This document shows positions 1,282 to 53,676 of a stretch of 64,000 nucleotides of DNA, one piece after another; within the stretch, counting starts at the first letter, position 1, and every line of letters starts with the position of its first letter. Source of the stretch: Gammaproteobacteria bacterium (GTDB lineage Bacteria > Pseudomonadota > Gammaproteobacteria > S012-40). Position numbers and translations under genes: made by a program. The notes under the pieces are model-generated. The model did no database searches, was not told the origin of the DNA, and saw nothing but the letters and a program-made list of their open reading frames with translations. Where the stretch lies: the NCBI GenBank assembly GCA_029884425.1, contig JAOUHV010000002.1, positions 1 to 64,000 on the forward strand, in the 5' to 3' direction.

Positions 1282-2340
1282 CTAACAACGAATAAAAGAG
1301 TCGCGTAAAACTGGCTGCCCTTTTTTTACAGCTTTAATCATAGTCCCACCGAGAACCTCATCCAAATACTTTGGTGCAAGACCAAACCCTGGTCGAATAC
1401 TCCGAACATGTTCAGGCTTTATAATCTCCCCCACACCAACATCCTTCACAAAGTACAAGGAACGCCTAAATTTAACATTACCTACCTCACTAGACTTTTG
1501 CCCATAATCAACATGACCTACCGCCTGCCAAGCTATTTTGGAATCTCGACACAAAGCTTCCAATTCATTTGGCTCGAGTGAAAAGCTGTCATCAGGACCT
1601 CCCCCATTGCGATCTAGCGTAACGTGTTTTTCAACTATGCACGCCCCCAATGAAACTGCCGCTATGGCTGTAACATTACTAATAGTGTGATCAGATAACC
1701 CTACTAGCACACCAAAATGCTCCCTCATATCTACAAGTGTTTTTAAGTTATAATCACCGGACGGAGCGGGATAACCACTCACACAGTGCAAAATAGCTAA
1801 CTGCTTACACCCTCCCTCCCTTGCCGCCTCAATAGCCTCTGCTATTTCTTCTCGATCAGCCATGCCCGTCGAAATAATCATCGGTTTACCTGTAGAGGCA
1901 ACGTATTTAATTAGCGGTAAATCAATCGCTTCAAATGAAGCAATTTTATATGCAGGAGCATTCAGATCTTCAAGCAAATCTACTGCAGTATTATCGAATG
2001 GAGAGCTGAACATAGTAATGCCAACTTTTCGCGCATATTCGAAAAGTGGCTTATGCCATTCCCATGGAGTATGTGCCCACGCATACAAATCATACAATGA
2101 CCTTCCTGCCCATAATCCTTCGGTCAACATGAAGTCCGGCCCATCACAATCAATTGTTATCGTATCTGGGGTATAGCTCTGAATTTTTATCGCATCCGCG
2201 CCTGCTGACTTTGCAGCATCCATGATTTTAAAGGCCCGTTGAATATCACCATTATGATTTGCCGATAACTCAGCGATAATATACGGAGGATAGACCCCAC
2301 CAATATTGCGCCCATTAATAGCAATTGATTCGCTCATCAT
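1282..2340 (-). CDS. pseI: Pseudaminic acid synthase PseI
   Basis: Condenses 2,4-diacetamido-2,4,6-trideoxy-L-altrose with phosphoenolpyruvate to give pseudaminic acid in the cytoplasm. The protein has the NeuB-type TIM barrel (ELSANHNG, KIQSYTPDTIT, SSPFDNTAVDLLE, ISTGMA, LSDHT, EKHVTLDR) and a C-terminal SAF domain (VGVGEIIKPEHVRSIRPG). PDTITIDCD and LYDLYAWAHTPWEW are typical of PseI rather than sialate NeuB. The start is taken at adjacent ATGs (2338-2340 or 2335-2337), just past the end of the upstream gene; a longer frame reaching 2433 would overlap that gene without support. It is last in the pse gene series, and the cassette genes follow directly. Confidence 0.93.
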   Translation of the reverse strand: MMSESIAINGRNIGGVYPPYIIAELSANHNGDIQRAFKIMDAAKSAGADAIKIQSYTPDTITIDCDGPDFMLTEGLWAGRSLYDLYAWAHTPWEWHKPLFEYARKVGITMFSSPFDNTAVDLLEDLNAPAYKIASFEAIDLPLIKYVASTGKPMIISTGMADREEIAEAIEAAREGGCKQLAILHCVSGYPAPSGDYNLKTLVDMREHFGVLVGLSDHTISNVTAIAAVSLGACIVEKHVTLDRNGGGPDDSFSLEPNELEALCRDSKIAWQAVGHVDYGQKSSEVGNVKFRRSLYFVKDVGVGEIIKPEHVRSIRPGFGLAPKYLDEVLGGTMIKAVKKGQPVLRDSFIRC

Positions 2341-2353
2341 GCATTTCTCATAT

Positions 2354-3298
2354 TTATTTATCATCAACAGGTACGAACAACTCGACTTCGCCCGATATAC
2401 AACACTGATCATCTTTATTGCTAATACTAACAAACGCCAACAATTTTCGCCCTACTCGACTAAGTACTTTAACATTTAGGCTACACAATGAATTAGCATA
2501 AACCGGCTTATGAAAACTATATTTCTGTGCTAACAAAATAGTTCCATTTCCAGGAAATTCAGTTCCAAATACAGTAGCTACAAGGGAGCAAAGTAATTGT
2601 CCATGAGCAATCCTGTCTTCAAAGCCCACAGATATTGCATAATCACTGTCAACATGGATAGGATTATCATCCCCTGTAAGTTTAGAAAAACTATTAATAT
2701 CATCACATGTAACAAAAAAATCTTTGCTAAATGTTGAATTCACTCGATATGAATTGTTCATTTTGGAGTCAATTTGAGGCCGAATATATTTTACCCATTC
2801 AATCTTGAACAATGCCAACCTGTAGACATCAAACAACTCACCTTCAAATTGGTGTTGCTTTCGGAATATTCCTTCGACACTAAAACCATGCTTTCGATGA
2901 AAGCGTATCACTGATTCATTGTAAGACAGAACTTCACAGTATAGTTTTCCCATACCTAGTTCATTAAAGGCATAATTGATTGCGTAATACTCCATCAATG
3001 AGCCGACACCTCTAACAGCAGTATTTCCGGAATAAAATGCCCAACTACAACATTTACTTGATAAATTGATATCCACATAAGCAATCACACCGACAGGGAC
3101 ACCCTCGATCTCAAAAATAAAATACTGTTTACTACTATCTGACTGAACCCTATCGAACCAAGCCAGATGTTCTTCCGCAGTAATTTCGTGACTGGTATAC
3201 ATATTCTTTCTTGTTTCAGGAGAATTGCGCCATACCAGCACATAATCCAAATCGCTATTTTCCATTCTCCTCATGCTGCATCGCTTAGACTCCTTCAT
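2354..3298 (-). CDS. pseH: PseH N-acyltransferase fused to a MaoC-type (R)-hydratase domain
   Basis: Residues 1 to about 172 are a GNAT acyltransferase of the PseH type (LDYVLVWRN, SWAFY, GVGSLMEYYAINYAF, EVLSYNESVIRFHRKHGF), which acylates the 4-amino group of the UDP-altrosamine intermediate. Residues about 185-314 are a hot-dog MaoC domain with the (R)-specific enoyl-CoA hydratase motif TGDDNPIH (catalytic D210 and H215 intact) and DRIAHGQLLCSLV. Usual PseH proteins are about 160-200 residues and lack this domain. A strong GGAGGA ribosome site precedes the ATG, which overlaps the pseG stop by one base. Inference: the hydratase may supply a 3-hydroxyacyl-CoA to the acyltransferase. Confidence 0.88.
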   Translation of the reverse strand: MKESKRCSMRRMENSDLDYVLVWRNSPETRKNMYTSHEITAEEHLAWFDRVQSDSSKQYFIFEIEGVPVGVIAYVDINLSSKCCSWAFYSGNTAVRGVGSLMEYYAINYAFNELGMGKLYCEVLSYNESVIRFHRKHGFSVEGIFRKQHQFEGELFDVYRLALFKIEWVKYIRPQIDSKMNNSYRVNSTFSKDFFVTCDDINSFSKLTGDDNPIHVDSDYAISVGFEDRIAHGQLLCSLVATVFGTEFPGNGTILLAQKYSFHKPVYANSLCSLNVKVLSRVGRKLLAFVSISNKDDQCCISGEVELFVPVDDK

Positions 3299-4383
3299 TA
3301 TTCCTCCTTCAATAAAGCATCAAGCACTCGATCAACTCCACCACCATCAACGACTCCTAAAGATTTCTTTCGCATGAGCTCTAGACGACGTGGATTCATA
3401 CTCAATTCCTTAAAAATATTTCTATAATCCATATCTCTTAGATCTTCACAATTTCCTATATAGATTTGCGTACCTCTTTTCTGCATTTCAATTGCCACTT
3501 TCCTCTGATTGCTAGCAACAACCGTCACAACAGCTGGCACTCCGAGACAACATCTCTCCCATGTAATACTTCCACCAGCACAAAATAACAAATCAGCACC
3601 AACAAGAATCTCTGCAATGTTATTTACATTATAATGAAGCGTTACACCATCATAATGATCACACCAAGCTTCAATATCAACTTTATAGGGATTTGCGGCA
3701 CCAATGATTACATCAATTTCAAGACCTTTATTTAAATATTCTACAAGTGAAAATAGTACCTTTCTGGTTTCATTTACCAGATCAGCCCCCCCATAAAATA
3801 TTGCCACTCTCTTCAAACAAGATATTTTTTCCTTAGGGTCTGATTGTCGAAACTCATCCCTTAGCAATACATATCGTGGTCCGAGTAGCCGAATAGTTGA
3901 ATCTGGAACCAATGAATCATAACGAGTAAAAAAATGCTCACATAAATTTTGATCCAATATCACATCACAATCATGCATTCGATTAGCCAAATCATCGATA
4001 ACCAATATTCGTGAACAGTACTCTCTTAGAGCCTTTTCCCACCGATAATCAATCGCATAATGATCAACAATCAACCAATCCACAATATTACCATCTAATG
4101 CAGATATAGTTTGAAGCACATCTTCTTGCCAACTGCAACCAAGCCAGCTTGCATGAGCCAAAAAATCTATATCATCGGACACATACTGTTTATCAGGTTG
4201 ATTAATTATATTTAGCTCAAAACCCTCTCCTTCGATCACCGCACAGAGGTTACCTTCCAATTCTCGACAGATGAAAGAGCAATTAGCTCCCCGATGACTC
4301 AATGCATGCGCCAAAGTCAAGCAGCGCATAACATGACCTGTTCCAATCAATTGCGATGCATCAACTCTAAAAATAACGTTCAT
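3298..4383 (-). CDS. pseG: UDP-2,4-diacetamido-2,4,6-trideoxy-beta-L-altropyranose hydrolase PseG
   Basis: Removes UDP from the bis-acylated altrose nucleotide to release the substrate of PseI. The N-terminus (FRVDASQLIGTGHVMRCLTLA) carries the conserved glycine-rich loop and histidine of PseG, a GT-B fold relative of MurG. FYGGAD and LFCAGGSITWERCCLGVPAVV are the C-terminal nucleotide-binding segments. At 361 residues it is near the usual family length. It starts 2 bases after pseF and overlaps the start of pseH, so translational coupling is likely. Confidence 0.92.
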   Translation of the reverse strand: MNVIFRVDASQLIGTGHVMRCLTLAHALSHRGANCSFICRELEGNLCAVIEGEGFELNIINQPDKQYVSDDIDFLAHASWLGCSWQEDVLQTISALDGNIVDWLIVDHYAIDYRWEKALREYCSRILVIDDLANRMHDCDVILDQNLCEHFFTRYDSLVPDSTIRLLGPRYVLLRDEFRQSDPKEKISCLKRVAIFYGGADLVNETRKVLFSLVEYLNKGLEIDVIIGAANPYKVDIEAWCDHYDGVTLHYNVNNIAEILVGADLLFCAGGSITWERCCLGVPAVVTVVASNQRKVAIEMQKRGTQIYIGNCEDLRDMDYRNIFKELSMNPRRLELMRKKSLGVVDGGGVDRVLDALLKEE

Positions 4384-4385
4384 AA

Positions 4386-5084
4386 CTAAATTTCATTCAT
4401 TTCTAACAAGGCACGATACATTGCCTCTGCTCGTTTCCAATCATCCATATTATCGATGTCTTGAACACGATAGCTCGGTACACTAAGAGCCCATGTATCA
4501 GAAGAAAAAATTGGCTTCTCAGCCAACCAAGCGTCTGCCATTCCCCAATAAAATTGTCCCGCATCATGCCATGATTCTTCAAGATCCTGCGACCGAGTAT
4601 TAAAATTTTCTGGAAAAAACATTTCAACGCGACCACGCTCATTGATTTTTACTGCTCGCTGAATGGGAAATCGATATCGCGTAAATGGAACCGAATATAA
4701 TAAGTCACCCTGTTCAAGCTTTTCCAAGGCAGACAAAATATCTAATTCCCTTACAAAAGGAGCGGTAGCATAAACACAACAAACATATTCATACATCAGA
4801 CCACCAGACCGAAAATATTCAATCGCATGCTTAATAACCGGAATAGTTCCAGAAAAATCATCGGCTAAACTTTTTGGTCTAATAAAGGGCACCTCCGCAC
4901 CACAGCCACTAGCAATACTTGCAATTTCATCATCATCCGTACTTACAATAATTCGATCAAAACAACCGGTTCGTTTCGCAGCATCGATTGAATAGGCAAT
5001 AATCGGCTTTCCGCAAAATAATTTAATATTTTTCTTCGGTATTCGCTTACTCCCACCTCTTGCTGGAATTACACACAACCTCAC
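4386..5084 (-). CDS. pseF: Pseudaminic acid cytidylyltransferase PseF
   Basis: Activates pseudaminic acid to CMP-Pse. The N-terminal nucleotide-binding motif IPARGGSKRIPKKNIKLF, then IVSTDDDEIA and YATAPFV, are typical of CMP-nonulosonate synthetases; 232 residues is the normal length. The start is a GTG (5082-5084) whose GTGA overlaps the pseC stop, preceded by GAGGTG at suitable spacing. GQFYWG near residue 180 is typical of PseF. Confidence 0.93.
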   Translation of the reverse strand: MRLCVIPARGGSKRIPKKNIKLFCGKPIIAYSIDAAKRTGCFDRIIVSTDDDEIASIASGCGAEVPFIRPKSLADDFSGTIPVIKHAIEYFRSGGLMYEYVCCVYATAPFVRELDILSALEKLEQGDLLYSVPFTRYRFPIQRAVKINERGRVEMFFPENFNTRSQDLEESWHDAGQFYWGMADAWLAEKPIFSSDTWALSVPSYRVQDIDNMDDWKRAEAMYRALLEMNEI

Positions 5085-6238
5085 TTTATCACCTCAGAAA
5101 GCGCTCGAACCACATCATTTTGCTGTGAAACTGTCATCGAATTGAAGATCGGGATACTTATCTCTCTAGAATAATAGGATTCAGATACTGGAAAATCGCC
5201 ATAGGAAAACCCCCTAGATCGATAATACGGCTGGGCATGCACAGGAATATAGTGCACATTAACACCGATTCCTTTGTTACGAAGCTCATCAAATATCTCA
5301 GCTCGATCTCTACTCAACTGATCTGTCTTCAATAAAATCGGATACAAATGATATGCCGAAAACGCCCAGCTCGACTGAAATGGAAGAAGCACCGGGACAT
5401 TAACAAGCATATCATTATATCGACTAGCCAATTGGTGGCGCTGTCGAACAAACGCGTCAAGGCGTGATAACTGACTTAGCCCCAGCGCAGCTTGCATCTC
5501 AGTCATACGGTAATTAAATCCTAAATCTACCTGCTGATAGAACCACCCACCCTCCGAGGAACCAATCATCTCATTGGGATCTCGGGTTATACCATGACTC
5601 CGAAGAAGCAACATTTTTTTATACAACAACTCATCATTTGTTGTTGCAACTCCACCCTCAGCCGTTGTTATTATCTTTACTGGGTGAAAGCTGAATATCG
5701 TAATATCCGAATATTCACAACCACCTACAGGGCGGCCTAGGTATTTACCACCTATAGCATGCGAAGCATCTTCAATAACTTTAAAGCCGTACCGATCACC
5801 CAATCGCCTTATTTCTTTCATATTGCATGACTGCCCCGCGAAATGAACAGGAATAACCACTTTAGGCAATCTATTTTCTTTCTCAGCTAGAATTAGCTTT
5901 TTTTCCAACTCAATAGGACACATATTATAGGTAAGAGGGTCGATATCAACGAAATCAACATCAGCACCACAATACAATCCACAATTTGCAGAGGCCACAA
6001 ATGTGTTTGGTGACGTCCACAGCCAATCACCTTTACCCAAGCCTAACGCCAAACATGCCACATGCAGTGCTGATGTCGCGCTATTTACTGCAACTGAATA
6101 GTTTACATTGCAATATTCCGCTAGATTTTTTTCAAATCGGGGAACCGTCGGCCCCTGCGTCAAGTATTCAGACTTCAACACATCGACAACAGCATCTATA
6201 TCTGCCTGACTTATATCTTGTTTACCATAAGGAATCAT
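5081..6238 (-). CDS. pseC: UDP-4-amino-4,6-dideoxy-N-acetyl-beta-L-altrosamine transaminase PseC
   Basis: PLP-dependent aminotransferase of the DegT/DnrJ/EryC1 class that aminates C4 of the PseB product, with glutamate as likely donor. Visible motifs are GKQDISQADIDAV and LTQGPTVPRFE at the N-terminus, NSATSALHVACLALG for phosphate binding, EDASHAIGG for the ring aspartate, and FSFHPVKIITTAEGG with the PLP lysine. YRMTEMQAALGLSQL and the C-terminal VHYIPVHAQPYY are also typical. The 385 residues fit PseC. It lies 3 bases from pseB. Confidence 0.93.
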   Translation of the reverse strand: MIPYGKQDISQADIDAVVDVLKSEYLTQGPTVPRFEKNLAEYCNVNYSVAVNSATSALHVACLALGLGKGDWLWTSPNTFVASANCGLYCGADVDFVDIDPLTYNMCPIELEKKLILAEKENRLPKVVIPVHFAGQSCNMKEIRRLGDRYGFKVIEDASHAIGGKYLGRPVGGCEYSDITIFSFHPVKIITTAEGGVATTNDELLYKKMLLLRSHGITRDPNEMIGSSEGGWFYQQVDLGFNYRMTEMQAALGLSQLSRLDAFVRQRHQLASRYNDMLVNVPVLLPFQSSWAFSAYHLYPILLKTDQLSRDRAEIFDELRNKGIGVNVHYIPVHAQPYYRSRGFSYGDFPVSESYYSREISIPIFNSMTVSQQNDVVRALSEVIK

Positions 6239-6241
6239 AAG

Positions 6242-7252
<1,011 letters not shown>

Positions 7253-7291
7253 TTAAGCTAAGTATTACCCATGAATAAACGAATATGCGAA

Positions 7292-8152
7292 TTACAAAGA
7301 ACGTAGCAATTTCCCAAGCATCTTTTTTAACACCAATTGCCAGTGATGAAGCAGTGGACCATCCTTCATTTTCTTATCTAGCACCCCAAACGACGGCCGA
7401 CGAGCAGGAGTAAAATACTCGCTAGCAGCAATAGGCTTGATTACGATTTCTTTACTCAACAAGCCTATTGCTAAGGCCTCTTGCTGTATTGCCACCGCGA
7501 AATCATACCAGCTCGCCACCCCCGCATCAGTATAATGATAAATACCTCGCAACTTCGGCCGATCAGCCATTTCCCATATCGCCGATGCCAATGAGCCTGC
7601 CCACGTTGGCGTACCAATTTGGTCACATACCACACTCAATTCATCACGCTCACGCATCAAACGCAGCATGGTTTTTACAAAATTATTGCCGTGAACAGAA
7701 TATACCCAAGCAGTGCGGATAATCACCGCATCAGGGCATTCTTCAGCCACCAGTCTTTCGCCTTCCAACTTTGATGCGCCATATACATTCAGAGGGTTGG
7801 GCTTGTCTTCTGGCGTATAGGGCGTAGATTTTGCTCCATCGAACACAAAGTCAGTCGATATATGAATTAATCGAGCACCACTTTTTTTTGCACTCGCCGC
7901 AAGATATCCTGCACCATACGCATTCACAGCATAGGCGGTTTCTTTATCGCTTTCTGCCTTGTCTACTGCGGTATAGGCTGCCGCATTTATGATTAAATCT
8001 GGTTTTATTCGGTCAACAAACGCATTAACTGAAAGTTCATCACGGATATCCAGTTGATCCACATCAACCGCGTATACTTCATACCCATCTGGAATTCTTT
8101 GCTGCAACTCCCAACCAACCTGACCATTCGCTCCAGTAATCAAAACTTTCAT
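7292..8152 (-). CDS. rfbD: dTDP-4-dehydrorhamnose reductase RmlD
   Basis: Reduces dTDP-4-keto-L-rhamnose to dTDP-L-rhamnose. The SDR nucleotide fold begins at residue 3 with LITGANGQVGWELQ. INAAAYTAVDKAESD and the catalytic tyrosine/lysine in NVYGASKLEGERLV are the RmlD signature. WVYSVHGNNFVKTMLRL and IRTAW are also typical. It overlaps rfbC by 4 bases (ATGA) and is last of the rml genes in this locus. Confidence 0.95.
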   Translation of the reverse strand: MKVLITGANGQVGWELQQRIPDGYEVYAVDVDQLDIRDELSVNAFVDRIKPDLIINAAAYTAVDKAESDKETAYAVNAYGAGYLAASAKKSGARLIHISTDFVFDGAKSTPYTPEDKPNPLNVYGASKLEGERLVAEECPDAVIIRTAWVYSVHGNNFVKTMLRLMRERDELSVVCDQIGTPTWAGSLASAIWEMADRPKLRGIYHYTDAGVASWYDFAVAIQQEALAIGLLSKEIVIKPIAASEYFTPARRPSFGVLDKKMKDGPLLHHWQLVLKKMLGKLLRSL

Positions 8153-8697
8153 AAAAAATACTCCGCACGTAAGAATGGCTTTCCATCCATATCTTTTGCA
8201 GAGAGCTTAGGCTCATACCCTTCCGGAATCGGCCATTGAATATTCAGAACAGGATCATTCCATGCTAGACAATGTTCATCTGCAGGTGAATAAAAATCCG
8301 TACACTTGTATACAAACTCTGCAGATTCACTAGTCACATAGAACCCATGAGCAAAACCCTCTGGCACCCACAGCATTTTTTTATTATCCGAGCTAAGATA
8401 CTCACCAACCCATTGTCCAAAAGTTGGGGAAGTTTGGCGCATATCTACCGCTACATCATAAACTTCGCCTGAGATTACACGCACCAACTTTCCTTGCGGG
8501 TTTGGCTTTTGATAATGCAGCCCTCTTAGAATCCCCTTCGAGGATTTGCTATGATTGTCCTGTACAAACTTCAGATCCAATCCCGCTTTTCGGAATTTTT
8601 CCTGGTGATAGGTTTCCAGAAAAAAGCCCCGCTCATCACCAAACACCTGAGGCTCTATTACAATAACATCCGGTATTTTTGTTGGAACAAATTTCAT
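8149..8697 (-). CDS. rfbC: dTDP-4-dehydrorhamnose 3,5-epimerase RmlC
   Basis: Cupin enzyme that inverts C3 and C5 of dTDP-4-keto-6-deoxyglucose. Motifs include [32 protein letters not shown] with the catalytic histidine, [18 protein letters not shown], and [11 protein letters not shown]. The 182 residues match the family. It overlaps both neighbours by 4 bases, implying one translationally coupled rmlBACD unit. Confidence 0.96.
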
Positions 8698-9572
8698 AGC
8701 CTGATTTTCCCTTCGAGCAATCGAAGCAGATATTCACCATAACCACTTTTTTTCAGGGGCTGAGCAAGCTTTTCTAGCTGCTGAGCACTGATATAGCCCT
8801 GTCGATAGGCAATCTCTTCCAAGCAGGCAATTTTCAATCCCTGCCGTTCTTCAATAATCTTGATGTAATTTGCTGCCTCTAGCAAAGAAACATGAGTCCC
8901 AGTATCGAGCCACGCAATTCCCCGCCCCAAAAGCTCCACCTGCAGCTTCCCTCGATCAAGATAAACTTGGTTCACATCGGTGATTTCCAATTCACCCCGT
9001 GGAGAAGGCTTGATCTCTTTGGAAATAGAGACGACATCATTATCGTAATAGTAAAGACCAGTTACTGCATAATTGGACGGCGGATTTTTCGGTTTTTCAA
9101 TCACCTTGGTGACTTTTCCCGTCGCATCAAAATCAACAACTCCGTAGCGCTCAGGATCGTTCACATAATAGGCAAATACCGTCCCACCTTCTTTTTGTGC
9201 TGCAGCCCGAAGTAAGCTATCTGCCAAATGATTGCCATAAAAAATATTATCGCCTAACACCAAGGACACAGGATCATTGCCGATAAATTCCTCACCAATA
9301 ATAAATGCCTGTGCCAAACCATCCGGACTAGGTTGCTCGGCATAAGAAAGGCTAATCCCCCATTGCGAACCATCGCCCAACAAATCGGAAAACCTCGGCA
9401 AGTCCTGGGGGGTAGAGATAATCAAAATATCCCTGATTCCTGACAACATCAACGTGCTCAGGGGGTAATAAATCATCGGTTTATCATACACGGGCATGAG
9501 CTGTTTACTTACCGCCATGCTCAATGGATACAATCGTGTTCCACTTCCCCCCGCCAAAATAATACCTTTCAT
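8694..9572 (-). CDS. rfbA: Glucose-1-phosphate thymidylyltransferase RmlA
   Basis: Makes dTDP-glucose from dTTP and glucose-1-phosphate. The N-terminal [11 protein letters not shown] loop with [18 protein letters not shown] is diagnostic. [10 protein letters not shown] and the metal-binding aspartate region ITDVNQVYL follow. Length 292 is normal. Start and stop overlap rfbB and rfbC by 4 bases. Confidence 0.96.
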
Positions 9573-10645
9573 AATTTTGCTCCCAACCTTTCACGCTGAT
9601 AGCTTCCATCTTGAACACGTCGACACCAATCCAAATTAGCCAAAAACCATTCCACCGTTTTGCGAATACCGCTATCGAAACTTTCGGCCGGTTTCCAGCC
9701 TAATTCCTTTTGAATTTTACTAGCATCGATGGCATAACGAAGATCATGCCCTGGTCGATCCGCCACATAAGTAATCAAATCTTCGTAGCGATTCACTCCT
9801 GGTGGTTTGCGAGGAGCCAACTCTTCCAATAATGCGCAAATTGTTTTAACGACTTTTATATTTTGTTTTTCGTTATGCCCACCAATATTGTATGTTTCAC
9901 CAACATCGCCTTTTTCTGCAACAAGACAAAGTGCCCGTGCATGATCTTCAACATATAGCCAATCGCGAACCTGATTTCCTTTGCCATATACTGGGAGCGG
10001 CTTACCCTCCAAGGCATTCAATATCATCACTGGAATTAACTTCTCAGGAAAATGATAAGGGCCATAATTATTAGAACAATTGGTCAATAAAGTCGGCAAT
10101 CCATAAGTGCGGTTCCATGCCCTAACCAAATGATCGGAACTTGCCTTGCTTGCCGAATAAGGTGAACTTGGCTGATACGGTGTTTTTTCCGTAAACAAAT
10201 CGTCAACACCATGAAGATCGCCGTACACTTCATCTGTTGAAATGTGATGAAAACGGAAGCTAGTTTTTTTATCGCCATTTAGCGATAGCCAATATCGACG
10301 AGCGGCCTCAAGCAAGGTGTAGGTGCCAACAATATTTGTTTGAATAAATTCGGCCGGCCCATCAATGGAACGATCAACATGAGATTCAGCCGCCAGATGC
10401 ATCACAATATCCGGCTGATACTTTTCAAAGATCCGCTGGATTTTTTCCGCGTCACAAATATCAACTTGCTCAAATGAATATCGGTCACTAGCAGAAACCG
10501 ATGAAAGTGATTCCAAATTGCCTGCGTAGGTCAAATTATCAACATTCACCACCCTATGAGGTAATTCGTTGATAATATTTCGAATCACTGCAGAGCCAAT
10601 AAAACCAGCCCCTCCGGTTACAACAATAGTTTTACTAGTCACCAT
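9569..10645 (-). CDS. rfbB: dTDP-glucose 4,6-dehydratase RmlB
   Basis: Converts dTDP-glucose to dTDP-4-keto-6-deoxyglucose. The extended SDR motifs are [32 protein letters not shown], the catalytic STDEVYGD and the pair in [33 protein letters not shown] is typical of RmlB. The ATG at 10645 is chosen because GGAAGG lies just upstream and because the protein then begins close to the Rossmann motif. A longer frame from TTG at 10657 is less likely. Confidence 0.95.
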
Positions 10646-10658
10646 ACACCCTTCCAAT

Positions 10659-12946: not shown

Positions 12947-13845
12947 AAGATAGCCTTCTTTAGACTCTTTACTATGAGTTTCTGCAAGAAAGGAAAATAC
13001 TCAAATTGATCAAAACCCACAATCTGCTTCAACGAACCAAAATTCTGGAACAACCCTCGAACCCCCATTACCCTCCTTATATACCTTCTCTTAATTCTTG
13101 CAGAGCAAATAGAATAGTACGGATCAAGCAAATCAAACCACTTAGGGATTTCATACAGCATAATCAGCGGCTTGGACTCGACCCAGGATTTTTCCACTCG
13201 TTTCGAATACACATATGCCTGACTAGACACAACAAGCGATAACTTTTCCTCTTTTTGAGCCCAAGACAAGTAATCAAACACCAAACCACTATACGCGTGA
13301 CTAGTCCCTATATAACGTTTAAAGAATTGCGTTCTGTATGAGTCTGAGTGAATAACAAAACTACCAAATGGCAAATTAAATACATTATCGCAAAAAAAAC
13401 TTAATGCATTATCATATGATCTATCATGATCAATCTTCACCATTTTTTTGTATACGCCGTGTTTTTCATCAAAAATTTCCATATTTAGCAGCAATAGATT
13501 CGGGCATTTATTAACTAAAACATTTTTCACATAGACCAAAGCCCCATCCTTTAACCTATCATCATCACCCAGCCAATAAAAATATTCAGATGTGACACTG
13601 CAAGCCGAAGCAATCATACTTTCATCAATCGACAATAACTTTTCATGGGAAATGACGGTCAAATTCTGATACTTTGACCTCAACTCATCAAGAAGATCCC
13701 CCGTCCCATCATTGGAATTATTATCACTAACAATTAAACTAACACGTTCCTTCTGGCACTCTACAATAAGAGATTCCAAATACTCACTAAGGAGGTGATA
13801 TCTGTTTCGTGTTGGAATGACGATAGTCAAAAGTTTATCTAACAT
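12925..13845 (-). CDS. Family 2 glycosyltransferase (abequosyltransferase-like group possible)
   Basis: GT2 fold: TIVIPTRNRYHLLSEYLESL, SLIVSDNNSNDGTGDLL and YWLGDDDRLK with the DXD-type metal site. The ATG at 13845 is preferred because AAGG lies about nine bases upstream; an upstream ATG at 13866 lacks one. The NRYHLLSEYL and WLGDDD pattern recalls dideoxyhexosyltransferases such as abequosyltransferase. That makes it the most plausible tyvelosyl- or paratosyltransferase here, but this is only a suggestion. Confidence 0.85.
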   Translation of the reverse strand: MLDKLLTIVIPTRNRYHLLSEYLESLIVECQKERVSLIVSDNNSNDGTGDLLDELRSKYQNLTVISHEKLLSIDESMIASACSVTSEYFYWLGDDDRLKDGALVYVKNVLVNKCPNLLLLNMEIFDEKHGVYKKMVKIDHDRSYDNALSFFCDNVFNLPFGSFVIHSDSYRTQFFKRYIGTSHAYSGLVFDYLSWAQKEEKLSLVVSSQAYVYSKRVEKSWVESKPLIMLYEIPKWFDLLDPYYSICSARIKRRYIRRVMGVRGLFQNFGSLKQIVGFDQFEYFPFLQKLIVKSLKKAILCVKYPY

Positions 13846-15157
13846 AAACCGAACCTTTTCGAACATAAAATAGATATTGCAGTGGTGAAATAATTGCTGT
13901 AAGTGATATTGAAATTATGGTGGCCAATATCACACCGGCAACACCAAGATCGGTCTGTGCCAAATAAATACTTAAGGGTATATTGATAGCTGCGGAGAAT
14001 GAGGTTATAAAAACACCGATTTTCAACTTCCCTATAGCGCCTATAAAACAGCTAAAAATTGCATTCCAGAGCATCATTATTGTCAGCACAACAAACAATC
14101 CGACCACATACCGAGGTACATCAACGCCATCACCAACCCAAAGCTGAATAAGCCAATCTGCATTAAAAGAAAAAATGAGAGCCGATAACGACAACACCAG
14201 AAAAACCACCAACTGAGCAGCAGTGTATTTCTTAATCCATGAATAATCGCCACGATGAAATGCTTCAGTATAGGCTGGCAACAACGGGGTCAATAATAAC
14301 GTTTGTATCAAAACAAAAAAACTAAACAACTTTAACACCACTTCATACGGCGTCACCATTCCAGGCCCTAATATCTGAGAAATTATAATCCTGTCCGTCA
14401 TATATATAGACAGCGTCGCCAGTTGGATAATAAAGAACTGAATACCCAGGGTTAATAGCGGCTTTATTTGGAGCAATTTTGGCTTGCTAAAAAAGGGCAT
14501 TAAACGAGGGTGTTTGGCGTGCAAAATTAAAGTCAAAATAAGATTGGATGAGACAAGCGCAAGGCCATACGCGAGCACCATATACAGAATAGATGAATCA
14601 CAGAAAACATATAACGCATATACCGAAAAAAGTGCCAATATGTTTGCCAAAAACTGACTAAAAACGACATAAGATGTTTTCTGCAACCCATGAAAAACTT
14701 GTGCAACAAGGCTAATCCAGAAATTTGCCAAAATGCACATTGCCAATACTATAACAGACTCCCTCAGTGCGACCTCAGATACTATCGTTGTGTTAAATAT
14801 TCTCTGCCAACTGACACTAATGGAGACTATAAGCACAACTAAAAACAATACAACTGCTACAAAACCGACAACCATATACGACGCAGCAACATACTCTCTG
14901 GCACTATTATAGTCTGATGCAGACAATGATTCAGAAACCTTGTTCCTCAATCCATTACCTATACCCAGGTCAAACAACATCACCCATGAAATAAGTGCGA
15001 GCATGGTAGCCCACACGCCAAATAGCTCATTTCCTAAATACTTAATAGTAATCGGCATCGCCACAAAGGTGGCTAAGATAGCAAGTCCCTTAAAAATAAA
15101 AGAGGACTTAACCTGATAAACATAATTAAAACCCCTGGAGCTTGACAATTCAGACAT
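13835..15157 (-). CDS. wzx: Wzx-type O-unit flippase (polysaccharide biosynthesis protein)
   Basis: A polytopic inner-membrane protein of about 440 residues with some 12 hydrophobic segments. Near the N-terminus are [23 protein letters not shown] and [24 protein letters not shown], typical of MATE/PST-fold flippases. It would move the undecaprenyl-linked repeat unit across the inner membrane. The ATG at 15155-15157 overlaps the end of the epimerase gene by eight bases; the frame extends to 15226 but that part overlaps the upstream gene. It overlaps the downstream GT2 gene. Confidence 0.88.
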
Positions 15158-16175
15158 GACCGCATGACAACCATTCAACCATTTTCCGCACTCCCTCTTT
15201 GGCATTAACCCTAGGATTCCAACCAAGCCACTTTTCTGCTTTTGTCACATCAGCCACAAACACCTTTTGGTCGCTAGCACGCACTGGCAACTTTGTATAG
15301 TCAAGCTCCACACCCACTATAGATTCCAATAACGAAAACAACTCTAACAATGACAGGCTCTGCGCAGCCCCACCACCTATATTAAACACTTGTCCCCTAG
15401 CTTTATCCTCATGTGAAACTGCTGCAAAATATAAACTCTTCATATCATCCGCATGCAGCACATCTCTCACTTGCTTTCCATTACCTGATATAGTGAACGG
15501 TTCTTTTAATTTTCCATTTTTTATATCTATCGCCTGTTGACAAAACCAACCAACCCATCCTTGATCATAGGTAGCATATTGCCGACCACCATACATTGAT
15601 GAGTGTCTAAACACCGCGGTATTCAAATCAAAGATCCTTGCATAATCAAGCATGTATTGATCTGCAGCGCCCTTCGAGCAACCATAGGGAGAGTGAAATT
15701 CCATTGGCGTCGTTTCGTCAAAACCTTTTTCATATCCTTTTGCCTCATAACGAGTTTCCGTTTCCAGGTATTCAACCCACTCAAGGTCTCCGTAAACTTT
15801 ATTCGTGGATGAGTAAATGACTTGAGCATAAGGAACATGTGCACGAACAGCTTCTAGCAAATTCAAGGTCCCTAGTGAATTTGTTTCAAAATCTGCCCTT
15901 GGATTTGAAATTGAAGTTGTCATTGCCACTTGTCCTGCCAAATGAAAAATCACGTCTGGCTTATAATTGGCAATTAGGCTATCAACATCATTTGCATTTC
16001 GTATGTCTCCATGAACAAAGAAGAACTTTCCTTTTTCTTTTAGCCACTGATAATTGAGATTACTGCCTGTGCGTGATAAGTTGTCAAAAATACATAACTC
16101 TTCTCCACGAGAGAGCACTTCCTCTGCGAGATTGCTCCCTAAAAATCCACACCCGCCAGTAATCAAATATTTCAT
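15150..16175 (-). CDS. rfbE: CDP-paratose 2-epimerase (CDP-tyvelose epimerase)
   Basis: Epimerises CDP-paratose at C2 to CDP-tyvelose using bound NAD. The sequence closely follows Salmonella Rfb[97 protein letters not shown] and [12 protein letters not shown] are nearly identical as I recall them. The catalytic tyrosine/lysine are in the PYGCSK segment. Its presence indicates tyvelose rather than only paratose or abequose. It overlaps the preceding reductase gene by four bases. Confidence 0.92.
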
Positions 16176-20427: not shown

Positions 20428-21672
20428 TCAGGGCCGTGACTGATAATTTATTTGTGCCGCCGAAAAACACATCAACAAAAACAACAAGCCCCCCTTAACC
20501 ATCGCACTACGTGACAACCAACCTTCCGTTAATCCAAACACCGCGAACGCGACCAAAACCATTGACGCCGCTATCAACCAAAGTTTCTCTGCGTCTTTTA
20601 ATCCAGACAAAAGCGAGGCAGGTAAAATAAAAACACCAATCAATAGGGCAGCCACACCCAACATTCCAGTCGTCGCTAGTGCATCGAAATAAATACTATG
20701 CGCATGCTCGTACGGCTTTGGATATTCGGTTAAACCCTGTTCTTTTAGCTGCGCCCTATGTCCTTCGTAGTCACCAATGCCCGTCCCTAACCATGGATTG
20801 TTTTGCCATATCAAAAGCGCATCTTTCCACATCAAGATACGCTCTCCCCACGACGATGGCTGAGAGGGGTCCTGTAACGTGCGATTAATGTCACTAAAAC
20901 CCGACTCAACCCCACCTACAATTCGTTCAGGTTTTAATGCAGCAAGAGCTATGATGGCAAGCAAAACACCAGCAGATGCCATCAGAATTTGTCGTCGTGT
21001 GATTTTCTGCCGATAAAACCACGCTGCTACCACCATGGCTACTGGCAAGAGTATCCACGCACCACGAGTCATCGACAACACCCCTGCATATAAGGCAGCT
21101 ATCGCAGAGCACAACATAAGAATCTTTAATAACCTATTTTTATTCAGTTCAATTGCCATTAGAAAAATTAACACTGCAAGCAATACTGAAAAATCGCCAA
21201 ATATTATTTTATGGTATGCTCCGGACGCTAATTCCTTTCCCAAAACAGCAGTGTCATACCACGCATCAGCGGCATAAATAAATCCCGCTAAGACACAGCC
21301 TATAATTAACGCTCTACCGACATACTCACCGTAGCGTCGCAGTAAAAGATAAATTGGAATAGAAAGCGGAAAATATAGATAGCGCTCCAGCTTGCGAATA
21401 CCCGCAGCCATATTTTCGGTATTTAATAATGAAATTGAGGCAACAATGAAAAAAGCAACGAACCCATATAACATCAATTTTTCTTGTTTACACAGACTTT
21501 TCCAAGCTGGCCAGCCATAAATAATTCCCAGCAGAAATAGCAGCGCAAATACAACGCCACTACCATCCTTGACCGTTGCTGCGACCATAGGAAAAATCAG
21601 CACCAGCAGTGCAATTACGTAGCGCAACCAATCGCGTGTTTGATATTTTTGGTGACGGATATTAATATGCAT
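20428..21672 (-). CDS. O-antigen polymerase/ligase family membrane protein (Wzy_C-type)
   Basis: About 414 residues with around ten to twelve membrane helices and a periplasmic loop containing PWLGTGIGDYEGH and YEHAHSIYFDALATTGMLGVA, typical of the Wzy/WaaL ligase-polymerase superfamily. It either polymerises repeat units or joins the glycan to lipid A-core; sequence alone does not separate the two. The ATG at 21670-21672 lies within the end of the upstream phosphotransferase gene; TTG at 21684 is a less likely start. Confidence 0.85.
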   Translation of the reverse strand: MHINIRHQKYQTRDWLRYVIALLVLIFPMVAATVKDGSGVVFALLFLLGIIYGWPAWKSLCKQEKLMLYGFVAFFIVASISLLNTENMAAGIRKLERYLYFPLSIPIYLLLRRYGEYVGRALIIGCVLAGFIYAADAWYDTAVLGKELASGAYHKIIFGDFSVLLAVLIFLMAIELNKNRLLKILMLCSAIAALYAGVLSMTRGAWILLPVAMVVAAWFYRQKITRRQILMASAGVLLAIIALAALKPERIVGGVESGFSDINRTLQDPSQPSSWGERILMWKDALLIWQNNPWLGTGIGDYEGHRAQLKEQGLTEYPKPYEHAHSIYFDALATTGMLGVAALLIGVFILPASLLSGLKDAEKLWLIAASMVLVAFAVFGLTEGWLSRSAMVKGGLLFLLMCFSAAQINYQSRP

Positions 21673-23062
21673 TCTTGTGCACAAACCCTTTGAAGATTGT
21701 CAGAAAAATAATCTTCAAGTCAAACCACAGCGTCCAATTCTCAATGTACTGTAAATCAAACTCGATGCGCTTATTCAGATCTGTATTCCCTCGCCAGCCA
21801 TTAATTTGCGCCCAACCGGTAATCCCTGCCTTGACCATATGTTTTTTCATATAGTCAGGGATTTCATTTTTAAATTGCTCCACAAATACCGGACGTTCAG
21901 GACGAGGCCCTACAATGGACATATCTCCACGCAGCACGTTAATGAACTGTGGCAATTCATCCAAACTCGTTTTGCGTATAAAACTACCGAAGGCTGTTGC
22001 TCTGTTGTCACCAGATTTTGCCCACACGGCTCCTGTTTTATTTTCAGCATCTACAGGCATAGACCGAAACTTTAGCATGGCAAAAGATTTTCCATTCCAG
22101 CTGACGCGCTCTTGTCGATAAAACACAGGACCTGGGGAGCTAAGCTTTACGCCCATTGCCAAAGCCAACATTAGCGGACTTATCAACAACAAAATCGTCG
22201 ATGCCAAAATTTTATCTTCGATATTTTTTACCATCCAGTTCACCCCGTGCATGGGTGACTCGGAGAGATTGACCACTGGCAAACCTGCAATCGACGTCAC
22301 CGAATGATTGATAAGATTGAAGTTAAAAATATCCGGCACCAAGCGAATATCAATTGTGCTATGCCGCAACATGTGAAGCACATCATTGATACGCCGATCT
22401 GCACTGAGAGGTAGCGCAACCCAAACCTCGGAGATATGATGTTGCTCCAGCAGCTCCGGCAATAAATCCACACCACCCGCAACGATCACTCCATCAATGC
22501 GCTGACCATGAAGTTCACTTTTATCGTCTAAAAACGCCACAACCTCTAAGCCGGTTGCCATTGCTTGGCGCAGACGCAGAGAAATATTTTGCCCTAACTT
22601 TCCCGCACCGATGACCACTACCTGCTTCCGGTTCCATCCTTTCAGTCTGGCAAGCCGTAACGCAATACCCAAGCTGCCTCGAAAACCAACCAGAAAAACC
22701 AGACCCAACACCGCCCAACTTAACAACCACTGCCTGGAGTACAACTCACCCGATTTGGTAATAAAGGCTAAAAACACCAAAATTGCCAGCACGACACACC
22801 AACCAGACACGATGGCCTTCACATGCTGGAGCCACCCCCGCCCCCGCCAGGATGCATAGATACCAAAGCGAGGAAACACCAACAGGCTGAGCAACAAACC
22901 AAGAATAACGGAAAGCTGGTAAATCTCCGGTGCCAAAGGAGCTGGCCAATGTGGGATTGTGAAGGCGAGCCATGCAGACAACGAAATTGCCAACATATCG
23001 CTCAGATGTGCCAACAACGAAATTACGTTTGAATGCTCACGATGGAAGCGCTTTGAAACCAT
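21662..23062 (-). CDS. wcaJ: Undecaprenyl-phosphate glucose phosphotransferase (WcaJ-type initiating enzyme)
   Basis: Starts the repeat unit by moving a hexose-1-phosphate, probably glucose-1-P, to undecaprenyl phosphate. Four N-terminal membrane helices are followed by a CoA-binding-like Rossmann segment (QVVVIGAGKLGQNI). After a further membrane helix comes the C-terminal sugar-transferase domain: FYRQERVSWNGKSFAMLKFRSM, KTSLDELPQFINVLRGDMS, VGPRPERP and the C-terminal GITGWAQINGWRG. 466 residues is normal for WcaJ/PHPT proteins. The start is a clear ATG. Confidence 0.92.
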   Translation of the reverse strand: MVSKRFHREHSNVISLLAHLSDMLAISLSAWLAFTIPHWPAPLAPEIYQLSVILGLLLSLLVFPRFGIYASWRGRGWLQHVKAIVSGWCVVLAILVFLAFITKSGELYSRQWLLSWAVLGLVFLVGFRGSLGIALRLARLKGWNRKQVVVIGAGKLGQNISLRLRQAMATGLEVVAFLDDKSELHGQRIDGVIVAGGVDLLPELLEQHHISEVWVALPLSADRRINDVLHMLRHSTIDIRLVPDIFNFNLINHSVTSIAGLPVVNLSESPMHGVNWMVKNIEDKILASTILLLISPLMLALAMGVKLSSPGPVFYRQERVSWNGKSFAMLKFRSMPVDAENKTGAVWAKSGDNRATAFGSFIRKTSLDELPQFINVLRGDMSIVGPRPERPVFVEQFKNEIPDYMKKHMVKAGITGWAQINGWRGNTDLNKRIEFDLQYIENWTLWFDLKIIFLTIFKGFVHKNAY

Positions 23063-46501: not shown

Positions 46502-46762
46502 ACTTTTTCGGGGCTTTTTGGGGTTATTTCCATAGAAAAACAACTTATTTGTTAGACCAATAGCGCACACCTGACAAAAACCTTTAGTTCAGTGGTTACT
46601 GTGTCTCAAGCCCGCAATTTGTGAGACCTCGGTCATAGAAACGCTCCAAAGTGTGACTCGCTAGACATCGTACATCTACAAAACCAAGGTTATTGATCGC
46701 TAAGAATGCCGAGGCGTTGCAAGATTGCCCAACGCTTTAACTATATGATTGCTGGGGGAATG

Positions 46763-48052
46763 ATGATCACGGTTAGAATACAGGTCTTGGCGCCAACACT
46801 CTTGCTATTGCTGAGTTCCACCGCGCATGCGGTTGACTCTCCACAATTGGCACAAGCAAACACGCTACTGGCCCAACACCGCCCCGTGCAAGCGCTGGCA
46901 CTATTAGAAGAGACCATGGCAGCCGATGCCGGCGACCCTCAATACGATCGTCTGCTGGGCCAGGCAGCACTGGCCGCCAACAAACCCAATTTAGCCGTTT
47001 TCGCCCTCGAACGGGTCGTACTGACCCAGCCTGACGATACTGACGCCCGCCTGGCCTTGGTGCGTGCCTATATCGAACTGGGCGAATTCCGCCAAGCTAA
47101 AACCGAATTAACCCAACTGCCAGTGTCCCGCGATCCGTCCCTGTACCACATTGCCCAACAGTACATGCGGCAAATCAATTACGGCATACGTCAGCAACAG
47201 CGAGACTTCGCCCTGGTGGTATCGATGGGCGCAGGCCGCGACAGCAACGCCAACAGCGCCACTGACATTGACCAATTCCTGGGCGCCAATTTGTCAACCA
47301 ATAGCCAGGCAACCGCCTCGGATACCAGCAGCCTGCTCCTCAGCGCCGCTGCGGCATTACCCCTGAGCAAAAAATGGCGCAATGAAACCTCTGCGCAGTT
47401 TTTCCACCAGGAATTTAGCGATGCCAGCTTCGTCAACACCGACAGCGTCAGCCTCACCAACAGTTTGAACTATCAGTCCAGCCGTCGCAGCCAGGAGCAG
47501 TGGGTGTTGCAAGCCATGCATACCGAGGTGGATCAACAGCTAAACAACCGCCAGGCCAGCGTACAGTTCAACCACGCCTACACCCTGGACACCGGCTCGC
47601 TGACCCTGACGGTCAAAACCGGCCAAACCCGTTATGACGACAAATACGCCATTCGCAACATCCAGCAGCACAGCGGTGGGCTGCGCTACGCCTATCAATT
47701 GGGAAGCCTGAGCGGCAACGTGGCCTTACTGACTGGTCAGGATCGCCCCATCGACAACCAGTCCCCCTATAGCCGCCAATTTAACGCAGCCCAACTAGGT
47801 TTTATGTGGAATCAGGGCAAAACCAACACAATCGCCTCGATCAATTATGTCCAAAGTGTGTACGACAGCACGTTTTTTGGCATCGATCGGAACGATAACA
47901 ATGTAGGAGCGTCACTGCGTTTGAACTACAAGTTAGGCGCTAAATGGACTGCAGGCCCCAGCCTGACCATTATGCGCAATCAATCCAGTGTCGACCTGTA
48001 CGACTACGATCGCAATCAGGCGATGGTTTTTATCAGTCACCAAATCATCTAA
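46763..48052 (+). CDS. TPR plus outer-membrane beta-barrel protein, Slam-like (DUF560)
   Basis: A signal peptide (VRIQVLAPTLLLLLSSTAHA) leads to about 110 residues of TPR-like helices (LLGQAALAANKPNLAVFALERV, ALVRAYIELGEFRQAKTEL), then alternating strands forming a C-terminal barrel (GYENDP-like motifs, ending FISHQII). This TPR-plus-barrel layout matches Slam, the type XI translocator of surface lipoproteins; from memory, at about 430 residues it is on the short side for the family. Upstream in-frame ATGs at 46706, 46745 and 46760 exist. It starts a four-gene plus-strand operon. Confidence 0.72.
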   Translation: MITVRIQVLAPTLLLLLSSTAHAVDSPQLAQANTLLAQHRPVQALALLEETMAADAGDPQYDRLLGQAALAANKPNLAVFALERVVLTQPDDTDARLALVRAYIELGEFRQAKTELTQLPVSRDPSLYHIAQQYMRQINYGIRQQQRDFALVVSMGAGRDSNANSATDIDQFLGANLSTNSQATASDTSSLLLSAAAALPLSKKWRNETSAQFFHQEFSDASFVNTDSVSLTNSLNYQSSRRSQEQWVLQAMHTEVDQQLNNRQASVQFNHAYTLDTGSLTLTVKTGQTRYDDKYAIRNIQQHSGGLRYAYQLGSLSGNVALLTGQDRPIDNQSPYSRQFNAAQLGFMWNQGKTNTIASINYVQSVYDSTFFGIDRNDNNVGASLRLNYKLGAKWTAGPSLTIMRNQSSVDLYDYDRNQAMVFISHQII

Positions 48053-49264: not shown

Positions 49265-49672
49265 ATGAAACCTATCAAGACGTTAACCGCCACATTCGCT
49301 TTACTCGCGTTTTCATCGGCCGGCGCTGTTGAACAAGTTTCAGTGTCACACCGTGTGGTTGCCACAGGCAACCACGGGGTGTACTCGTCCATCACCCTGG
49401 CCCTTACTGTCAGCAACGTTGGCAGCAGTGATTTGCACAATGTGAAGATTTATCCCGGTGGCGATGAATTCGCGCTGGACGAGCGCAACCAAGCAGTTAA
49501 TGTTGGCTACTTGCCGGCAATGGGGCAAACAGTTCTGTACCTCACCGCCGATACCCCACTGGCCAAGGAGTATTTCAGTTCACAACTGCCAGTCTTGTTC
49601 CTGCTCAACGGCAAATTGCCTGGCGACAAGAACATTGAACTGCCGTTGCACAGCCAAGGGGGGAACCAATAA
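49265..49672 (+). CDS. Small secreted protein with beta-sandwich-like fold (136 aa)
   Basis: Signal peptide (LTATFALLAFSSAGA) then a single domain with alternating hydrophobic residues (ITLALTVSNVGSSDLHNVKIYPGG), as in CARDB/DUF11-like sandwiches. No firm family. An AGGAG at 49252-49256 fits ATG 49265; a TTG two codons earlier is less likely. It overlaps the start of the giant HYR protein by one base and may act with it. Confidence 0.75.
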   Translation: MKPIKTLTATFALLAFSSAGAVEQVSVSHRVVATGNHGVYSSITLALTVSNVGSSDLHNVKIYPGGDEFALDERNQAVNVGYLPAMGQTVLYLTADTPLAKEYFSSQLPVLFLLNGKLPGDKNIELPLHSQGGNQ

Positions 49673-52600: not shown

Positions 52601-53676
52601 CTGCGGATGTAGTTATCGAAGCGACGGGAGCACTTACTTCCGTGGTTCTTGGCCAAGCTACAGCAACCGATATTTTCAACGTCACTATCAGCAACAATGG
52701 TCAATCCGGCTATGCGCTGGGCAGCCATTCCGTGCTGTGGACCGCGCGCGATGAAAACGGCAATGTCAGCCAAAAATCGCAGTCAGTAAAAGTCATCGAC
52801 ACCACCGCGCCGGTGGTCACTGCAGGTATCGACATGGTGGTTGAAGCCACCAGTGCTGCCGGTGCCGCGTTTGTTCCCAGCTATCAGGCCAGCGACATCT
52901 GCGACTGTGGTGCGATGAATATCCAGATCGTACCCTCATTGCCCGTGTACCCATTGGGACAGCATGTCATCACCGTCAACGCCAGCGATGCCAGTGGCAA
53001 CACCGGCAGTGACAGCATGCTGCTCAAAGTGGTGGACACCACCAAGCCTGTGCTGAATGTGCCCGCCGACCTGGTGGTCGAAGCCAGCGGTGAACTAACC
53101 ACCATCAACATTGGCCAGGCCACTGCCAGCGACCTGTTCGCGGTCAACATGCGCAACAATGCGCCTGCGGCCTACCCACTGGGCACCACCCTGGTGGAAT
53201 GGGTAGCAACCGATGCCAACGGCAACAGCCGCATTGGAGTCCAACGCATCACCGTGGTCGACACCACCGCGCCCAGCTTTGCGCTGAACGTGTTGCGCGA
53301 CCGCTTGTGGTCACCCAATCACAAGTTGGTGCTGGCTGCCAAAGTGCAAAACATTCGTGACTTGGTGGACGGCAAGCCCAAGGTCGATATCCAGATCAGC
53401 AGCAGCGGCAACCAACCTGGCCGTGGCCACGACCGTGATCGCGACTGGCTGGTGGAAGAACGCAACGGCGAATGGCTGATTTATCTGCGTGCCGAAAAAG
53501 ATCACAAAGGCAAAGACCGTCTGTACAACATCAGCGTCAATGTCAGTGACTTCTCCGGCAACATGAACAGCCAGAGCGCCCAAGTCAGCGTCGACAAAGA
53601 TAAACATGACGAGCGCGACCACGATCGTCGCGATGACAAAAAGTCAGACCGTAAAGACGACAAACGCTCCAAGTAA
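49672..53676 (+). CDS. Giant secreted beta-propeller / PKD / HYR-repeat protein (1334 aa)
   Basis: Signal peptide to about residue 24. Residues about 30-430 are seven or eight TolB/WD40-like blades (S-DGRYVAFAS...NLV style). A PKD-like domain spans about 440-545. Then nine HYR-type repeats of about 75 residues, most opening with D-T-T-A-P-x-L-T-x-P, and some carrying paired cysteines. The C-terminus is highly charged and ends in Asp/Lys/Arg-rich sequence. Two central repeats are near-identical. It is probably exported and surface-bound, with a structural or adhesive role; secretion through the Slam-like protein is an inference. Confidence 0.85.
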   Translation: MRKPTFARSAVAAAIAMVCFNAQASHTEWVSTINNQSFAGKSNVPDVSGDGNIVVFTSTASGLFNGTGTILFHALMKNSQTGQITLLATNAQGVAANGHSNDPRVSANGRYVVFESFATNLAPADTNATTDVYLRDLQTGTIKLVSSNASGQVSNAHSHDGVVSDDGRYVAFASMATNLVSTNTNNKRQIYLKDLVTGTVELISKNAAGQASDNDNLSPEISTDGRYVVFNSIASNLDGQSPADQYDIYLFDRLDKSVKRLAGMKNSHTGKVSISYDGRIVAFVSQATDVVANDTNGFVDVFVLDRKTGNIERIQGSAAPNGRSLSPHVSGDGRFVTFTSDASNLVASDSNGVADQFVYDRFTKQIQLVSVGVNGQQGTQSVVDWADINKDGTVVAFTSSDALHSSDTNGQMDVYARHLDPAPNVAPVAKATQPIDQACSNGGAYVSLDASQSYDPDNQSLTYSWSGPFGTLSGSAINAFFGVGSHTVTLTVTDASGTSSTDSIIVNVVDNQAPTVSAGADVVVEATSTQGAQHNVAYTAADSCSLNGVTVNPTPQYYPLGNTTVTVTAFDKANHSASDSMVITVRDTTLPSLTIPTDKVIEATALPMSVNIGNAQASDIFPVTVVNNAPATFPLGQSLITWTATDANGNKRSAQQKITVRDTIAPSLLITQGDAVLEATSRGGAPYSIGYNVSDSCVGCGTINVLLIPSLSIYPLGITPVSVTATDHAGNKTSKQVSIKVQDTIAPTLTIPADVTREANDINSSINIGSATATDIFDVTISNNAPIVYPLGQTQVRWTATDSNGNSRSATQRVSLVDTTAPVLTLPADISVEASAILTSVNIGNAIAKDIFGISLSNDAPSAFPLGSTIVNWLATDDSGNIARGKQTVRVVDTTAPALTLPADISVEASARLTPVSIGNAIAKDIFGTTLSNDAPSAFPLGSTIVNWLATDDSGNIARGKQTVRVVDTTAPVLTLPADVVIEATGALTSVVLGQATATDIFNVTISNNGQSGYALGSHSVLWTARDENGNVSQKSQSVKVIDTTAPVVTAGIDMVVEATSAAGAAFVPSYQASDICDCGAMNIQIVPSLPVYPLGQHVITVNASDASGNTGSDSMLLKVVDTTKPVLNVPADLVVEASGELTTINIGQATASDLFAVNMRNNAPAAYPLGTTLVEWVATDANGNSRIGVQRITVVDTTAPSFALNVLRDRLWSPNHKLVLAAKVQNIRDLVDGKPKVDIQISSSGNQPGRGHDRDRDWLVEERNGEWLIYLRAEKDHKGKDRLYNISVNVSDFSGNMNSQSAQVSVDKDKHDERDHDRRDDKKSDRKDDKRSK
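52120..52570 (+). repeat. 225-bp tandem duplication inside the HYR gene
   Basis: Copies begin with GTTGAYACCACTGC at 52120 and 52345, and the next related unit begins at 52570. The two first units are nearly identical along their length (for example the stretch beginning AACGCCATTGCCAAGG in each), so the duplication is recent or homogenised. The period is exactly 75 codons, so the reading frame is kept. Confidence 0.9.

Follow-up and report, generated by a model that had tools for sequence, protein, structure and literature searches.

A PseH acyltransferase fused to a MaoC-type hydratase domain in a pseudaminic acid operon, a probable in-built source of (R)-3-hydroxybutanoyl-CoA

Where does a cell obtain the (R)-3-hydroxybutanoyl group that it places on a pseudaminic acid? 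Most of the variation among sialic-acid-like bacterial sugars lies in the N-acyl groups, which contribute to antigenicity and to recognition by phages. Which genes determine the acyl group is often unclear, and we found no account of the origin of the (R)-3-hydroxybutanoyl donor. Acinetobacter baumannii makes Pse5Ac7R with psaABCGHF, where psaG/H take the place of psaD/E (PMC9676051, PMC6586298), and in K42/K93 the R group is (R)-3-hydroxybutanoyl or acetyl (PMC9676051, PMC6586298, PMC8092837), with Pse5Ac7RHb assigned by NMR in K93 (PMC8092837). Pse5Ac7RHb is also the product of the psb genes of Shigella boydii 7, with Psb5 as the predicted acyltransferase (PMC3628348). The first-pass annotation of a 64,000-nucleotide stretch of gammaproteobacterial DNA (hereafter the window) reported a PseH protein fused to a MaoC-type hydratase domain and proposed it as the source of this group. 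Its premise that known pseudaminic acids can carry 3-hydroxybutanoyl was borne out by the Pse5Ac7(3RHb) of A. baumannii and S. boydii 7.

The pseH::maoC gene (2354..3298, minus strand), defined by its open reading frame, family matches and structure model, encodes 314 aa in one unbroken frame with an ATG start, a stop at 2354 and no internal stops. The PseH (GNAT) domain at aa 9-161 (2816..3274, minus strand) scored 163.9-165.9 bits against NCBIfam TIGR03585 (curated cut-off 93.1) and showed the fold of 4ri1. The MaoC/PhaJ-type hot-dog domain at about aa 190-278 (2465..2731, minus strand) scored 56.4 bits against Pfam PF01575 (MaoC_dehydratas, cut-off 27), showed the fold of 1iq6 and contains D210 and H215 in a motif that is present in all three fusions found. 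It also matched HadB/HadA weakly, and its nearest solved sequences were 3ir3 (3-hydroxyacyl-thioester dehydratase 2), 5cpg ((R)-specific enoyl-CoA hydratase) and 1iq6 (Aeromonas caviae PhaJ). The fusion and both domain identities named in the first-pass annotation are thereby confirmed, with a single ORF, both domains above their cut-offs and matching folds. From M180, an ATG codon, 135 aa remain in the fusion and A. caviae PhaJ is 134 aa long; M180 could be the former start of a free-standing hydratase, and the fusion would have formed when the stop between two genes was lost.

An AlphaFold model of the fusion, built from 31 sequences, had a mean pLDDT of 93.7, mostly above 90 in the MaoC part, and a pTM of 0.71, with a relative placement of the domains that is not reliable. 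Residues 5-178 of the model matched Helicobacter pylori PseH (4ri1) with a Z score of 23.9 and 1.5 Å over 169 residues at 24% identity. The match to the A. caviae (R)-hydratase (1iq6) gave a target TM of 0.88 and 1.6 Å over 128 columns. FdhC (5ktc) was also matched, with a Z score of 20.2 over 174 residues, as likewise happens with many GNATs. The catalytic residues D210 and H215 had been called intact, and their numbering was correct; they align with the D-x-N-P-x-H of PhaJ from A. caviae (1iq6) and Pseudomonas aeruginosa (5cpg).

We searched for PseH in genomes sampled from the class and the phylum, and from a Vibrio-like genus together with the family and order to which it belongs. This search for further PseH-MaoC fusions, which had been recommended, returned two more, so that PseH::MaoC was present in three (the window, L129 and L193) of about 83 genomes with PseH above the cut-off. 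The protein of L129 (genome G596) has 304 aa and scored 138.7 bits against TIGR03585 and 69.3 bits against PF01575, and that of L193 (genome G1102, from another family) scored 66.0 bits against PF01575. Both operons run pseB-pseC-pseF-pseG-pseH::maoC-pseI as in the window, and three families are represented in all. A sequencing artefact had been named as a result that would undo the fusion. A lost stop or frameshift of this kind is ruled out by the same fusion in two other assemblies, and because these come from two other bacterial families the fusion is real and conserved. The three proteins share about 40% identity (for the window's protein against the others, over their length). They formed one clade in the PseH-domain tree (support 92/73) and one clade in the MaoC-domain tree (support 96/86, with a long-branch warning on the tree). 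A single origin of the fusion followed by spread is the simplest reading, although it is not proven.

In the regions flanking the PseH loci that we examined, no unfused pseH had a separate maoC gene beside it. No relative turned up among the viral contigs searched, and no plasmid record searched covered 80% of the fusion. The E. coli pse clusters showed a separate pseH or PseG::PseH, and no MaoC was annotated in the stretches inspected.

Other arrangements of pseH were seen along the way. PseG::PseH fusions of about 512-545 aa were observed directly in L167-L169, L174, L180, L182 and L183. The E. coli O136 and O165 loci (L147:6465-8003, L150, L152) have a 1539-bp gene that is annotated pseG and lack a separate pseH, from which PseG::PseH was deduced. 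The pseG-pseI stretch of L146 is covered by one 2580-bp gene that bears the annotation pseI. L145 (NZ_CP010428.1) is a 3045-bp circular plasmid of Allofrancisella guangzhouensis with just two annotated genes, rep and a pseH whose product, about 256 aa long, is extended at its C-terminus.

The pathway context claimed for the window gene, pseudaminic acid biosynthesis, also held, as all of its pse partners scored above curated cut-offs. The genes are closely packed in the order pseB-pseC-pseF-pseG-pseH::maoC-pseI, and all lie on the minus strand. They are pseB, the inverting UDP-GlcNAc 4,6-dehydratase (6242..7243; TIGR03589, 556 bits), pseC, the aminotransferase whose 4-amino product is the substrate of PseH (5081..6238; TIGR03588, 563 bits), pseF, the CMP-pseudaminic acid synthetase (4386..5084; TIGR03584, 324 bits), pseG, the UDP-sugar hydrolase (3298..4383; TIGR03590, 292 bits), and pseI, the pseudaminic acid synthase (1282..2340; TIGR03586, 493 bits), whose ORF extends to 2433 and whose start was placed at the ATG near 2337-2340. 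GC content was 0.38-0.43 in the pse genes and 0.38-0.46 in the measured pse and rml genes (1282-10657), with a window mean of 0.48; third-position GC was 0.22 in the MaoC part versus 0.38 in the PseH part. The low GC of the pse genes and the MaoC part would fit acquisition from outside.

Beyond the pse genes lie rhamnose-type genes and glycosyltransferases, then, all on the minus strand, a Wzx-like flippase belonging to this polysaccharide locus (13835..15226; PF01943), a Wzy/ligase-type polymerase (20428..21684; PF04932) and an initiating sugar-phosphate transferase (21662..23062; PF02397 and PF13727), with degP-rseA-rpoE-like genes after them. Because rhamnose-type, glycosyltransferase, Wzx-like, Wzy-type and initiating transferase genes are all nearby, the locus looks like one for a Wzx/Wzy surface polysaccharide rather than a flagellar island. 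Further along the window, the 1334-aa product of 49672-53676 strongly matches the HYR domain (PF02494), and a TPR protein is encoded close by at 46706-48052.

We consider the fusion to be, more likely than not, a bifunctional pseudaminic acid enzyme whose MaoC domain makes (R)-3-hydroxybutanoyl-CoA and whose PseH domain uses it. The MaoC/PhaJ-type domain would form (R)-3-hydroxybutanoyl-CoA by hydrating a short trans-2-enoyl-CoA, for which crotonyl-CoA from beta-oxidation is the likeliest candidate. The PseH domain would then move the acyl group to the 4-amino group (N4) of UDP-4-amino-4,6-dideoxy-N-acetyl-beta-L-altrosamine. PseG, PseI and PseF would take the product on to CMP-Pse5Ac7(3-hydroxyacyl), and this sugar would be built into the Wzx/Wzy-dependent surface polysaccharide. 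The fusion, its domains and their catalytic residues, the operon and the conservation of the fusion were observed directly; the hydratase activity, the identity of the acyl group, its use by PseH and the destination of the sugar are what we infer.

The active site of the MaoC domain was compared across the three fusions and 90 other MaoC domains. D210, N212, P213, H215, H232 and G233 did not vary among the three fusions and hardly varied in the other domains. At residue 244 each of the three fusions has Phe, which none of the 90 other domains has there; A. caviae PhaJ has Leu and P. aeruginosa PhaJ has Ile. Leu65 of A. caviae PhaJ is the equivalent position and governs acyl-chain length in that enzyme. 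As Phe244 is bulkier than Leu or Ile at this position, the sequence offers a lead towards a pocket for short-chain substrates. Residue 241 is Ala in the window fusion and Ser in PhaJ, L129 and L193.

The acyl group might be a different one under the same logic of a tethered hydratase, and the donor would then be another (R)-3-hydroxyacyl thioester, such as 3-hydroxy-3-methylbutanoyl (as in anthrose), a C5-C6 acyl or an ACP-bound acyl. Some weight is given to this alternative by the weak HadB/HadA scores and by the breadth of the MaoC family, whose domains act on acyl chains of various lengths bound to either CoA or ACP, as well as by the precedent of anthrose biosynthesis, where an enoyl-CoA hydratase gene is paired with an amino-sugar acyltransferase. 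We nevertheless rate it as rather unlikely, since the Phe244 of all three fusions suggests a short and narrow pocket. The pseudaminic derivative of this type that we found in the literature is, moreover, the 3-hydroxybutanoyl one (PMC9676051).

The acetyl-contacting residues of H. pylori PseH (PMC4363471) were mapped onto the PseH domain. The mapped contacts W86, C121, E122 and H134 were identical in the fusions and their nearest unfused PseH relatives, and the comparison of these contacts with those relatives showed no change pointing to a larger acyl group, though it does not speak against one either. The residues typical of the PseH domain of the fusions were C7, V95, F133, R135, I144 and Y159. 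As a separate observation, PseH proteins fall into types with E, Q or R at the position of aa 122 in the window fusion, which maps to Glu126, one of the acetyl-contacting residues of H. pylori PseH; A. baumannii L143 has Q. This type could track acyl specificity.

The unchanged acetyl contacts agree with another explanation, in which the MaoC domain does not work as a hydratase and is an appendage for oligomerisation or CoA binding, while PseH moves acetyl to give ordinary Pse5Ac7Ac. A dimerising role is conceivable, as PseH crystallises as a dimer and so do PhaJ-type enzymes, and the MaoC domain is absent from most PseH genes. Set against this, the three copies have diverged deeply, to about 40% identity, and all retain D210, H215, N212, P213 and H232-G233; such retention is hard to explain without selection for catalysis. 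We regard a non-working MaoC domain as improbable.

For the bifunctional enzyme the donor should also be within reach. A fadE - thiolase - fadJ operon on contig C40 contains the genome's one crotonase-type match and its one match for acyl-CoA dehydrogenase. Because of this operon an enoyl-CoA source is present and trans-2-enoyl-CoA should be available in the cell. Hydration by FadJ-type enzymes yields the S isomer. The fused domain was the sole PF01575 match in the genome. No PF07167 match for the PHA synthase PhaC was found at E <= 0.001 in the genome, which is 98.4% complete, so a PHA role for the (R)-hydratase is unlikely. That the two domains are independent, the hydratase being a general beta-oxidation or lipid enzyme joined to PseH by chance and uncoupled from the sugar, is very improbable: as the only MaoC match it could serve other needs, but in three families the fusion sits at one and the same position of the pse operon, there is no PHA synthase match in this genome, and the fadE-thiolase-fadJ operon suffices by itself for S-specific beta-oxidation.

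The hydratase domain was one of several modules found attached to PseH. A PseH::FkbH fusion of about 735 aa (TIGR01686, 257 bits) was present in the Vibrio-like genus and its family (L157-L162, L184-L186 and L212). At L212:6112-9038 (genome G784) it is followed by a gene with a VOC-like domain and, as read from its sequence, an ACP-like C-terminus. FkbH enzymes load a three-carbon acyl unit onto ACP, and PseH::FkbH with the ACP-like gene suggests a putative glyceryl-type acylation of pseudaminic acid. Like PseH::MaoC, PseH::FkbH places a C-terminal acyl-donor module in a pse operon, but with FkbH of the glyceryl-ACP type and an ACP-like gene in place of MaoC and CoA.

The first-pass annotation had called the PseH-MaoC fusion an arrangement not, to its knowledge, described before, and no earlier description turned up in our literature searches. 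The nearest published note concerns Vibrio sp. B9-25K2, whose authors remarked on a PseH with an extra domain that is linked to lipid metabolism and has no assigned function (PMC7371886). Its cluster contains PseB, PseC, a cytidylyltransferase-aldo-keto reductase, a dehydrogenase, PseG, the bifunctional PseH, a VOC-like protein and a synthase (PMC7371886). We considered this protein as a prior description of PseH::MaoC and rejected it: the gene content of the cluster matches that of L212, where the second domain is FkbH, and for this reason the B9-25K2 note most likely concerns PseH::FkbH.

A third kind of module was a formyltransferase. The ORF length at L092 had suggested a further MaoC fusion, but the added domain proved to be a formyltransferase, and L092:1495-2712 encodes PseH::formyltransferase. 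A separate formyltransferase-like ORF was found near pseH in L003 (5563 onwards), L004 (1666 onwards) and L125, directly after pseH in L003 and L004. Such PseH-linked formyltransferases suggest a candidate N-formyl substituent somewhere in the sugar. With FkbH and formyltransferase domains likewise joined to PseH in other genomes, the addition of acyl-chemistry modules to PseH looks recurrent. We tentatively extend this, with slightly less than even confidence, to a view of PseH as a platform on which the attached module (MaoC for 3-hydroxyacyl-CoA, FkbH with ACP for glyceryl, or formyltransferase) determines what pseudaminic acid carries at N7; in the MaoC version, a single protein would both make and use (R)-3-hydroxybutanoyl-CoA.

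A tethered hydratase that supplies (R)-3-hydroxyacyl-CoA is the reading with the best support, because the sugar is known, the short-chain signature and beta-oxidation genes are present, a PHA synthase match is absent and PseH has other acyl-module fusions. The exact acyl chain could differ. The TIGR03585 equivalog model, which names an acetyltransferase, counts against the proposed reading, as do the Ala at residue 241 of the window fusion and the small share of PseH-positive genomes, three of about 83, that carry the fusion. A fusion of the donor-making and donor-using enzymes provides a testable source of the donor and a marker by which genome sequences could be used to predict the acyl group.

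Among known systems, Acinetobacter psaABCGHF and the psb genes of S. boydii 7 yield the same pseudaminic derivative that is predicted for the fusion, and we came across no mention of a hydratase domain on PsaH or Psb5 in the papers on these sugars. As these two organisms have another route to Pse5Ac7RHb, the fusion may be dispensable for this sugar. PseH of H. pylori (4ri1) and Campylobacter jejuni (4xpk/4xpl) has the fold of residues 5-178 and the same operon position, but the solved proteins are single-domain acetyltransferases without a hydratase domain. PhaJ (1iq6, 5cpg) shares the hot-dog fold and the D-x-N-P-x-H and H-G motifs with the fusion; it feeds PHA synthase, whereas the fusion has no PhaC match in its genome, a sugar acyltransferase as partner and Phe instead of Leu or Ile at 244. 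For FdhC (5ktc), also a GNAT, the entry title gives a 3-[(R)-3-hydroxybutanoylamino] sugar as the product bound to it, but this enzyme acts on a nucleotide 3-amino sugar and consists of a single GNAT domain without a hydratase. The bifunctional enoyl-CoA hydratase/phosphate acetyltransferase of the PRK08190 type, which was the best NCBIfam match of the MaoC part at a score far below its cut-off, also joins MaoC to an acyl-handling enzyme; unlike the fusion, its partner is a phosphotransacetylase, its MaoC domain is N-terminal and it has no sugar link. We found no published description of PseH::MaoC, nor a paper with both PseH and MaoC, in a search that most subscription papers lay outside. The parts are each known, and their combination and its logic are, as far as we could check, new.
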